Of a stretch of 45,373 bases of DNA, positions 25,362-27,905 are shown piece after piece. Numbering within the stretch: the first letter of the stretch is position 1; the number at the start of each line of letters is the position of its first letter. The notes beneath the pieces were generated by a model. That model was not told where the DNA came from and made no database searches. It worked only from the letters and a program-made list of their open reading frames with translations. Made by a program: the position numbers and the translations under genes. Source of the stretch: Clostridia bacterium (lineage in GTDB: Bacteria; Bacillota; Clostridia; DUPQ01); contig JAFGIJ010000086.1 in the NCBI GenBank assembly GCA_016929655.1, positions 1 to 45,373 on the forward strand, written 5' to 3'.

Positions 25362-25438
25362 CGGGATGTAGCGCAGTTTGGTAGCGCACCTGGTTTGGGA
25401 CCAGGGGGCCGCAGGTTCGAATCCTGTCATCCCGACCA
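25362..25438 (+). tRNA. tRNA-Pro (anticodon TGG)
   Basis: 77 nt that folds as a cloverleaf. The acceptor strands are CGGGATG / CATCCCG, the anticodon stem CTGGT..ACCAG holds a loop with TGG, and the T-loop is GGTTCGAATCC. The CCA end is encoded. TGG reads proline codons CCN/CCA/CCG. Confidence 0.97.
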
Positions 25439-25448
25439 TATTTTTGTA

Positions 25449-25478
25449 ACAAAACTCTGGTATTTCCAGAGTTTTGTT
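25449..25478 (+). terminator. Terminator after tRNA-Pro
   Basis: A perfect 12-bp stem ACAAAACTCTGG (25449-25460) / CCAGAGTTTTGT (25466-25477) with loop TATTT. The T-rich 3' arm makes it work in either direction. Confidence 0.8.
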
Positions 25479-25516
25479 GTATCCATGATACACTGAGTTT
25501 TTATTGAGCAAATAGA

Positions 25517-25528
25517 ACCCTAAAGGGT
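25517..25528. promoter_or_regulatory. hip operator 1
   Basis: ACCCTAAAGGGT, a near-perfect palindrome followed by ATAAATT. First of three sites with start positions exactly 40 bp apart. Likely bound by HipB (inference from position in the hip leader). Confidence 0.6.
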
Positions 25529-25556
25529 ATAAATTAAGATGTAAATAGCAAAATAA

Positions 25557-25568
25557 TCCCTATATGGT
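25557..25568. promoter_or_regulatory. hip operator 2
   Basis: TCCCTATATGGT, followed by ATAAATA. It has the same orientation and flank as operator 1 and lies 40 bp downstream of it. Confidence 0.55.
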
Positions 25569-25586
25569 ATAAATATATCTATATAC

Positions 25587-25615
25587 TTGCAATTATACCT
25601 TTTAGGGTGTAATAT
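25587..25615 (+). promoter_or_regulatory. hipBST promoter
   Basis: TTGCAA (25587-25592), 17-bp spacer, TAATAT (25610-25615). The -10 ends 7 nt before the hipB ATG, so the mRNA would have almost no leader. Operator 3 fills the spacer. Confidence 0.55.
25597..25608. promoter_or_regulatory. hip operator 3
   Basis: ACCTTTTAGGGT; its reverse complement ACCCTAAAAGGT followed by ATAATT matches operators 1 and 2 including the flank, so it is inverted relative to them. It sits between the -35 and -10 hexamers, an ideal place for repression. Confidence 0.6.
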
Positions 25616-25622
25616 ATTACAT

Positions 25623-25823
25623 ATGAGTACTATTGGTGATTATATAAAAACAGAAAGAAAAAAAGCAGGATTGACGCAGGAAGAATTTGCCATGCGTTCA
25701 GGATTGGGCTTGCGTTTTGTGAGGGAACTTGAACAAGGTAAAAAGACTGTAAGGCTTGACAAAGTAAATCAGGCTCTTGCTATGTTTGGAATGGAAGCTA
25801 TTCCCGGAAAACTGGAGGATTAA
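25623..25823 (+). CDS. hipB: HipB-type antitoxin / DNA-binding repressor
   Basis: 66 residues. The XRE helix-turn-helix covers about 5-58 (IKTERKKAGLTQEEFAMRSG, then FVRELEQGKKTVRLDKV, the usual HipB ending). The open frame begins further upstream at 25587, but ATG 25623 gives the normal N-terminus; no Shine-Dalgarno is present. In hip systems HipB dimers bind operators and, with partner proteins, repress their own operon and restrain the kinase. hipS starts 3 nt after its stop, with GGAGG inside the end of hipB. Confidence 0.88.
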   Translation: MSTIGDYIKTERKKAGLTQEEFAMRSGLGLRFVRELEQGKKTVRLDKVNQALAMFGMEAIPGKLED

Positions 25824-25826
25824 AAT

Positions 25827-26156
25827 TTGACATCGGAATACAGAAGAGGATATGTTTATATTCAGAATTCATTTGCGGGAGTTATTGCAGAAACAGATGT
25901 GGGGTACAGGTTTTTATATGACCCGGAATATTTACATAACAACGATGCGACTGCAGTCAGTCTGACTTTACCACTGGAGAAAACGGAATACAATTCATCT
26001 GTACTTTTTCCTTTCTTTGATGGACTGATTCCAGAAGGGTGGATGCTTGGTATTGTAAGCAGAAACTGGAAAATAGATATCAATGATCGCTTTGGTTTAT
26101 TGCAGGTAGCCTGCAAAGACTGCATAGGTGATGTCAGTATAAGAAACGAGGTGTAA
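25827..26156 (+). CDS. hipS: HipS-type protein: stand-alone HipA N-terminal subdomain
   Basis: 109 residues from a TTG start with GGAGG 8 nt upstream. It matches the HipA N-terminal subdomain 1: YIQNSFAGVIAET at the start, then FPFFDGLIPEGWML and IDINDRFGLLQVACKDCIGDVSI. In one-piece HipA this domain is fused to the kinase; here it is a separate gene. In the described E. coli HipBST system the separate HipS is the actual antitoxin that binds and neutralises the kinase HipT. The stop lies 1 nt before the hipT start. Confidence 0.85.
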   Translation: MTSEYRRGYVYIQNSFAGVIAETDVGYRFLYDPEYLHNNDATAVSLTLPLEKTEYNSSVLFPFFDGLIPEGWMLGIVSRNWKIDINDRFGLLQVACKDCIGDVSIRNEV

Positions 26157-26157
26157 G

Positions 26158-27120
26158 TTGAAGTGCTTGTATTGTGGTAAAGAGCTAAGAGCATCTAGTC
26201 CTGATGAAATTAAAAATAATTGGCACAGAAAATGCGTAAAGGATTTTTTTGGAATCGGAGAAATGCCACTTCTGGATATTTCCAACGATCAGCTCATTAA
26301 AATAGCGGAAAATGCAGTTAACCAAGGGATTACAATTCCCGGCGTACAAAAAAAGATTTCTTTGCACCTTTCAGGAAACGAAGACAAAAGACTGACGATT
26401 GTTGATTATCCTACTGGGTTCATTTTAAAACCTCAGACTGAAGAGTTCGAATCGCTCCCTGAATTTGAGTTTCTGGCAATGCGCCTTGCTGAAATGGCAG
26501 GAATATCGACAGTACCCAACGGGCTTGTAAAACTGAATGACAGGTATGCCTATATTACAAAACGTATCGACAGGGATATTTCCGGTAATTCTGCAAAACT
26601 ATATGCCATGGAAGATTTCTGCCAGCTTGCAAACAGGCTTACCTCGGATAAGTATAAGGGATCATATGAAAACTGCGGAAAAATAATAAAGCGGTTTTCT
26701 CATCGTCCGGGTCTTGATTTATCCGAATTGTTCATAAGGATTGTGTTTTCCTTTATCATAGGAAATTCAGATATGCATTTGAAGAATTTTTCCCTTGTTG
26801 AAACTGAACCTTCAAGCAGACAATTTTATTTATCCAAGGCCTATGATATGCTGCCTGTTAATATTATTATCCCAGAGGACAATGAACAACTTGCACTTAC
26901 ACTCAATGGGAAAAGAAGCAGGATAGAAAGAAATGATTTCCTGGCGTTTGCTGGTATCTGTGAAATTCCTCTTAAGGCAGCGACAGGTATGATGGAAAAG
27001 TTGTGTTCCATGACAGATTCGTTTCTTCTGGAATGTGACCAATCCTATTTATCCGTTGAAAACAAGACAAAAACCAAGGAATTGATTCTGCAGCGAGTAC
27101 GGAATATCAGTTCTGTATAA
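26158..27120 (+). CDS. hipT: HipT-type serine/threonine kinase toxin (split HipA C-terminal domain)
   Basis: 320 residues from a TTG start with GAGGTG upstream. An N-terminal zinc-finger-like motif (Cys3, Cys6, His23, Cys26) precedes the HipA kinase fold. Seen in order: the Gly-rich loop TIPGVQKK (59-66), the ATP-site Lys91 in ILKP, Glu102 in LPEFEF, the catalytic Asp205 in IGNSDMHLKN and the metal-binding Asp230 in AYDMLP. HipA-family toxins phosphorylate aminoacyl-tRNA synthetases (GltX for HipA, TrpS for E. coli HipT) and so halt translation; the target here is unknown. The position equal to HipA Ser150 is Thr59. No kinase motif is missing, so it should be active. Confidence 0.88.
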   Translation: MKCLYCGKELRASSPDEIKNNWHRKCVKDFFGIGEMPLLDISNDQLIKIAENAVNQGITIPGVQKKISLHLSGNEDKRLTIVDYPTGFILKPQTEEFESLPEFEFLAMRLAEMAGISTVPNGLVKLNDRYAYITKRIDRDISGNSAKLYAMEDFCQLANRLTSDKYKGSYENCGKIIKRFSHRPGLDLSELFIRIVFSFIIGNSDMHLKNFSLVETEPSSRQFYLSKAYDMLPVNIIIPEDNEQLALTLNGKRSRIERNDFLAFAGICEIPLKAATGMMEKLCSMTDSFLLECDQSYLSVENKTKTKELILQRVRNISSV

Positions 27121-27202
27121 CGAATTATACTCTGTCTGAAAAAATCTTTTTTTTCGTTTCAAAGCCAGCAATGCATTATATTTCAAGCAATATTTTCCAC
27201 AA

Positions 27203-27217
27203 GCAACCACTGGTTGC
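27203..27217. promoter_or_regulatory. Palindrome upstream of the membrane XRE regulator
   Basis: GCAACCA-C-TGGTTGC is a perfect 7-bp inverted repeat in the 176-bp gap after hipT. A further half site TTGCAACCA lies at about 27245-27253. It could be the operator of the following XRE gene. No convincing terminator for hipT was found in this gap. Confidence 0.4.
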
Positions 27218-27296
27218 GAATGTTCAAGGGATGATTGATGGTATTGCAACCATGACTACATTAAAATTTGGTATGATACTAAATGGAGGAGCAAAT

Positions 27297-27905
27297 ATGA
27301 AACTACAGGAAAAAATACTTTACTATCGGAAAAAATCAGGCCTATCCCAGGAAGCACTTGCTGAAAAACTGGGAGTATCCAGACAGGCGGTCAGCAAATG
27401 GGAAACAGGAGAGGCTGTCCCGGAAATTGGCAAAATACTTCTTTTGGCAAAAACATTTGACATTACTACAGATAGTCTGTTGAATGATGATGATCCTATT
27501 GAGGACACATCGGAATCCTATGGCTTTGATAGAACAGGAACTGGTGGAAATACCTGGGTGGACAGTATCCCCGGAGTGCTTGGCAAATTGCTTCGTCGTT
27601 ATGGATGGCTATTTGGAGTATATATGGCAGTTGCCGGATTCTTTTTTATTTTAATTGGATCTGGTGCAAGACTTATAAGCAAAAGAATGTTCAGTGGATT
27701 TGGAGACAATTTATTCCCTTCGGATCAAATTTTCTTTGACCAGACAGCATCATTGCCTGGGTTTGATATTATGACAAACAATCCTATTTCAATAATGGGT
27801 TCTGTTATTATAGTAATTGGAATTATTCTTATGGTTGCTGGAATTATTCTGACGGTGATATTGAAAAGAATGAGTAAAAAGCAAGTCGAATATCCTAATA
27901 ATTAG
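27297..27905 (+). CDS. XRE-family regulator with two C-terminal membrane helices
   Basis: 202 residues from the ATG with GGAGGAG upstream; the open frame extends further 5' without a ribosome site. The helix-turn-helix (about 1-60: KLQEKILYYRKKSGLSQEAL, then LGVSRQAVSKWETGEAVPE) is canonical. Two hydrophobic segments follow at about 108-132 (GWLFGVYMAVAGFFFILIG) and 165-192 (ISIMGSVIIVIGIILMVAG). A DNA-binding domain tethered to the membrane is implied; this layout is frequent in Firmicutes, often linked to sensing the cell envelope, but targets here are unknown. Confidence 0.85.
   Translation: MKLQEKILYYRKKSGLSQEALAEKLGVSRQAVSKWETGEAVPEIGKILLLAKTFDITTDSLLNDDDPIEDTSESYGFDRTGTGGNTWVDSIPGVLGKLLRRYGWLFGVYMAVAGFFFILIGSGARLISKRMFSGFGDNLFPSDQIFFDQTASLPGFDIMTNNPISIMGSVIIVIGIILMVAGIILTVILKRMSKKQVEYPNN

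Follow-up and report, generated by a model that had tools for sequence, protein, structure and literature searches.

A putative three-site HipB operator array with conserved spacing in the leader of a clostridial hipBST operon

In the hipBST system of E. coli, HipB alone acts as a repressor and represses more strongly together with HipT (PMC10627512). Likewise, E. coli HipA is a co-repressor, and HipB binds cooperatively and bends its operator by 70 degrees (PMC3920265); complexes of HipB with O1-O2 and of HipA-HipB with O2-O3 have been solved (4yg1 and 5k98, respectively). Legionella has three evenly spaced operators bound by HipB, with 53-bp gaps between them across 28 species, and both HipT-HipB-DNA and HipS-HipT-HipB-DNA complexes are formed; the authors propose intermediate occupancy, unlike the cooperativity reported for E. 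coli (PMC10653801). For hipBST operons of Bacillota, Spirochaetota and Bacteroidota, we found no description of operator sequence or spacing in the literature.

Genes and promoter of the hipBST locus

The window, i.e. the whole 45,373-base stretch of DNA analysed here, contains a hipB-hipS-hipT operon preceded by three similar words, the last of them inside a predicted promoter:

25514..25531, no strand assigned: O1, putative distal operator, AGAACCCTAAAGGGTATA, with the 12-bp core ACCCTAAAGGGT at 25517-25528; held-out motif score 15.7, the second highest of the window
25554..25571, no strand assigned: O2, putative middle operator, TAATCCCTATATGGTATA, with the 12-bp core TCCCTATATGGT at 25557-25568, 40 bp from O1; held-out score 13.3, third in the window
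25594..25611, no strand assigned: O3, putative promoter-proximal operator, TATACCTTTTAGGGTGTA, with the 12-bp core ACCTTTTAGGGT at 25597-25608, 40 bp from O2 and inside the promoter spacer; held-out score 24.0, first in the window
25587..25592, + strand: predicted -35 box TTGCAA; 58 of 71 homologues have a TTGACA-like box at this position relative to O3
25610..25615, + strand: predicted -10 box TAATAT, after a 17-bp spacer; begins 7 bp past the O3 centre, as it does most often in homologues
25623..25823, + strand: hipB, 66-aa HTH repressor of the Y4mF/couple_hipB type (HTH_3 and TIGR03070 above cut-off)
25827..26156, + strand: hipS, 109 aa, TTG start, HipA N-terminal-like antitoxin (Couple_hipA, 1.2e-23)
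26158..27120, + strand: hipT, predicted 320-aa HipA_C kinase toxin (HipA_C, 2.2e-41)

Judged by gene order and by the features of the predicted HipS and HipT, the operon is a HipBST toxin-antitoxin system. As a member of this system, HipT would phosphorylate TrpS and HipS would neutralize it. The genes follow one another with gaps of 3 nt (hipB-hipS) and 1 nt (hipS-hipT). HipB scores 78.6 bits against TIGR03070, the family of Y4mF-type HipB antitoxins/repressors, for which the curated cut-off is 71.65; its AlphaFold model (pLDDT 93) has Legionella HipB (8ezt) as the best PDB match, and its predicted recognition helix comprises residues 30-37. HipS corresponds to N-subdomain 1 of HipA made as a separate protein, matching Couple_hipA over nearly its full length and the HipS structures 7vkb and 7ab3. 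HipT is devoid of N-subdomain 1 and has the catalytic motif GNSDMHLKNFS and the Gly-rich loop IPGVQKK; its gene is the sole HipA_C gene found in the genome, which is 89% complete. By sequence, the closest solved relatives of all three proteins are those of Legionella; for HipT and HipS, E. coli HipBST gives matches too.

Several further features of the locus and its relatives are worth recording. The N-terminus of HipT (26158-26240) displays a C-x2-C ... W-H-x2-C pattern, invariant in five homologues, with the look of a zinc-ribbon-like mini-domain. Downstream of hipT, a second HTH protein gene (27171-27905) combines an RstR/DicA-like HTH with a membrane-like C-terminus. A tRNA-Pro with its stem-loop lies directly upstream of hipBST (window 25362-25480; L165 700-921), and in a genome of the same genus (G002, contig C78) tRNA-Pro is followed by a sequence repeating part of the tRNA 3' end and then by the contig end, so that this contig yields no empty-site comparison. 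Two homologous loci (L063 and L080) have an extra open frame of ~140 aa, with no Pfam match, between hipB and hipS, possibly representing a four-gene hip variant.

The earlier note had described three 12-bp palindromes following one another at exact 40-bp steps, the third lying between the -35 and -10 boxes. All three words are present at the positions that it gave, with the flanks that it assigned to them (ATAAAT for O1 and O2, inverted ATAATT for O3), and O3 does lie within the 17-bp spacer between TTGCAA and TAATAT. As palindromes, however, they are imperfect, with complementary pairs in 5/6, 4/6 and 4/6 positions. The hipB ATG is located 7 nt past the end of the -10 box, and the predicted transcript start is near this ATG; the hipB mRNA thus appears to be leaderless (25610-25625), a predicted arrangement common to at least 32 homologues.

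The window alone would not prove an array, because a motif-free search of this AT-rich leader for three similar words at equal spacing did as well in 17 of 300 shuffles. The comparison with homologues was therefore used.

Conservation of the array and its probable link to HipB

Orthologues were collected from the family and class of the window, from GTDB genomes (80 loci), plasmids and viral contigs; hipB was located in each locus and the leader upstream of it was extracted. Among viral contigs, the search with HipT yielded five remote matches, none of them useful, and the HipB matches were mostly HTH domains fused to other proteins. A simple consensus, TATACCC-N4-GGGTATA, occurs exactly three times in 65 of 76 distinct leaders, with nearly all steps being 40-42 bp. 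A weight matrix detected chains of three or more sites with steps of 39-43 bp in 72 of 88 related hipBST leaders, compared with 0 of 1,760 shuffled leaders. Thus, the alignment of homologous leaders that had been proposed as a check bears out the conservation of both sites and spacing. The leaders themselves are diverged (median identity 57%): clustering all 88 at 75% identity gives 85 clusters, of which 70 have the chain. The loci come from Bacillota, Spirochaetota and Bacteroidota (organism names include Lachnospiraceae, Oscillospiraceae, Erysipelotrichaceae, Treponema, Sphaerochaetaceae, Prevotella, Marinifilum and Bacteroides relatives); the array occurs in all three phyla and is also found on plasmids.

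When the matrix was trained on loci outside the window's own family and applied to the full 45,373 bases, the three sites were the top three matches, the next one scoring 8.6, and none of 20,000 dinucleotide shuffles of the window leader held three such sites. Across the genome, about 104 motif matches with up to three mismatches were found, close to the 138 obtained with a reversed-pattern control. No second cluster is present among the matches listed, the hip leader being the sole one there, and a genome-wide regulon of the motif was accordingly rejected.

Of the 163 site-to-site steps in homologues, 85 are 41 bp, 56 are 40 bp and 14 are 42 bp. Since the commonest step is 41 bp, the exact 40/40 spacing is the window locus's own value. 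Deviations include one step lengthened to 51 bp in each of two loci (L002 and L028) and a last step of 25 bp in another (L018). When the homologues were checked for presence of hipB with loss of the motif or its phase, the refuting case named in the earlier note, just a minority turned out to have fewer than three sites, and the phase was retained by nearly all of them. L027, L052, L064, L070, L077 and L136 have one or two recognizable sites, and three sites are therefore not indispensable.

With the leaders lined up at O3, the conserved positions are those of the sites and the promoter boxes, and conservation in the spacers is low. In 58 of 71 loci, TTGACA has its first base 16 bp ahead of the O3 centre, and the -10 box most often begins 7 bp past this centre, indicating that O3 overlaps the predicted promoter in most loci. 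By their distance to the ATG, the loci form two classes, one with about 19 bp (exactly 19 in 32 loci) and one with about 45-60 bp; in the latter, most loci have a Shine-Dalgarno-like stretch and the leader is ~30 nt long. Because O3 is found in the promoter spacer in both classes, the array is tied to the promoter and not to the start codon. By having at least three putative sites, one of them overlapping the promoter, that are conserved in homologues, the window leader qualifies as a predicted multi-operator hip promoter.

The sequence of the sites also varies with that of HipB. The predicted recognition helix (residues 30-37) reads LRFVRELE in most HipBs. Where residue 34 is Arg, the base following GGG is T in 340 of 406 half-sites, whereas with His34 (two clostridial loci) or Val34 (nine loci, Proteobacteria only) it is A in 50 of 64. 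Furthermore, in L073, in which Arg31 is replaced by His, the sites are TATACT-N6-AGTATA at steps of 41 and 41 bp. Residues 31 and 34 are both inside the predicted helix, and helix positions of this kind would contact bases, by analogy with the 434 repressor. Although the numbers are small and partly confounded with phylogeny, this apparent covariation implicates HipB itself as the binder. Since the operator changes along with these HipB residue pairs, swaps of specificity could be tested directly. In L039, a hipST operon without an adjoining hipB, one partial operator, TATACCCGGACAAGTATA, is left between the -35 and -10 boxes.

Overall, we assign a probability of roughly 0.88 to the three sites being HipB operators. 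A functional array of HipB operators, kept at a conserved spacing, is supported by the conservation across phyla, the anchoring to the promoter, the covariation with the HipB helix and the lattice retained in L073 with a changed site; binding and repression by HipB have indirect support from this covariation.

Possible mode of action and alternative explanations

We propose that one HipB dimer would be bound per site and that occupation of O3 would shut off RNA polymerase. With O1 and O2 at nearly constant helical phase, neighbouring HipB dimers carrying HipS-HipT might touch across the ~41-bp gaps, and such HipS-HipT contacts would make repression cooperative and dependent on the toxin:antitoxin ratio. 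Upon loss of HipB or HipS, the array would open and the operon would be re-expressed. The earlier note had suggested cooperative binding with DNA bending or looping and bridging by HipS/HipT. Such a mechanism seems plausible because of the near-helical phasing, the 51-bp steps in two loci and the E. coli complexes spanning neighbouring operators, and we lean slightly towards binding being cooperative through HipS/HipT. A step of ~41 bp represents nearly four turns and the 51-bp steps one more turn; because 40 bp corresponds to 3.8 turns, the sites do not share exactly one face of bare DNA. Toxin-to-toxin contacts across operators have been inferred from structures of E. coli HipA/HipB, and the array could serve as a test case for how general they are in hip regulation.

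Alternatively, the three sites could be independent HipB operators without cooperativity, O3 alone being repressive, O1 and O2 titrating HipB or fine-tuning dosage, and the spacing merely avoiding clashes. The intermediate-occupancy shifts of Legionella HipB, with no clear affinity differences (PMC10653801), are in line with this explanation, as are the homologues with one or two sites. However, spacing is kept at 39-43 bp though the spacers diverge, and the 51-bp variants add one turn, both suggesting that relative position matters; we regard independence as rather unlikely.

Relative position might also obey a broader rule. The hip steps of 28, 39, ~41, 49-50, 51, 61 and ~71 bp have a phase of 0.67-0.89 turn at 10.5 bp/turn (R = 0.89, p about 0.002), the phase classes having been picked after seeing the data and being few and not independent, with 61 bp relying on two sites of a single locus (L169). 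A common phase is for these reasons, and because some classes are partly weak, a hypothesis only. It is conceivable, albeit on balance doubtful, that adjacent HipB dimers are set at near-equal rotational offset, regardless of operator sequence and of how many turns separate the sites, since neighbouring kinase units must touch; if so, the array would be a ruler coupling toxin dosage to repression. Another candidate rule, that spacing is set by kinase architecture (hipBST ~41 bp, hipBA ~49.5 bp), was rejected, given the 71-72 bp of Legionella hipBST and perhaps 61 bp (weak) in L169, and was confounded with phylogeny.

Sequence conservation taken alone would be compatible with a host-encoded regulator other than HipB owning the sites and controlling the hip operon. 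Such a regulator is very improbable, given that the array is common to three phyla and plasmids, that it covaries with the HipB recognition helix, that the window's own genome has no second cluster among the matches listed and that operator binding is proven for the HipBs of other systems. The equal 40-bp steps could also have been left behind when a 40-bp unit was duplicated in tandem, an origin that we reject as next to impossible because the window units are diverged outside the sites (7-10 of 22 positions identical), TRF detects no tandem array, no spacer homology between units was seen in a basal homologue, and homologues retain the lattice with unrelated spacers, or, in L073, with an altered site.

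Comparison with other hip systems

HipB operators upstream of the clostridial operon, our preferred explanation of the three sites, have counterparts in several known systems. The earlier note considered the array denser than a simple autoregulated operon needs. This does not hold, since three or four operators are the norm in the hip promoters examined (four in E. coli K-12, three in Legionella and three in proteobacterial hipBA).

Outside the conserved set, three leaders of other hipBST loci were inspected. An Aliivibrio fischeri plasmid (L167) may have a triple array with steps of 41/40 bp and another sequence, ATTCnnATTTGA (2 of 300 shuffles as good), and in an Arcobacter leader (L168) the motif-free array search was matched by 13 of 300 shuffles. 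A Bacteroides thetaiotaomicron plasmid with another hipBST type (L169) has two near-perfect palindromes, TCACAATACATTGTGA and TCACAATGTACTGTGA, 61 bp apart, a weak case with 9 of 300 shuffles as good.

Caulobacter crescentus hipBA1 and hipBA2 likewise have inverted repeats at regular promoter intervals, which the authors relate to higher-order HipA/HipB/promoter complexes (PMC7029023), but these are hipBA and not hipBST operons, and the likeness is by published description. E. coli K-12 hipBA shares with the window a multi-operator autoregulated promoter, and with 39 bp its middle step comes near the 40-42 bp seen here. By contrast, it consists of two genes with a full-length HipA, and its four operators, TATCC-N8-GGATA, are unevenly spaced (28/39/28 bp), whereas the window has three of the ACCCT-N2-AGGGT type. 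Closer in operator sequence are the proteobacterial hipBA operons with Y4mF-type HipB (for example on Acidovorax, Sphingobium and Rhizobium plasmids), which have the same HipB subfamily, three operators and the CCC-N4-GGG core; they differ in the flanks (TT..AA if residue 34 is Val), in steps of 49-50 bp and in having full-length HipA. Legionella HipBST has a tripartite operon and three evenly spaced HipB sites, the proximal one overlapping the promoter and all conserved across the genus (PMC10653801), as in the window. However, its operator is TACnGCnATAACAGTA-like with centre-to-centre steps of 72/71 bp in L. adelaidensis (L166), which agrees with the 53-bp gaps reported for the genus, so that the window array differs from the Legionella type (TACnGCnATAACAGTA, about 71 bp apart) in both sequence and spacing, and the two HipBs are about 30% identical over the structural match. 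Thus, multi-operator hip arrays are already known, and the novelty lies in the operator sequence, in its spacing and distribution over several phyla, and in a helical phase that may be common to hip systems; hipBST of Bacillota, Spirochaetota and Bacteroidota is thereby given an operator sequence together with a rule for its spacing.
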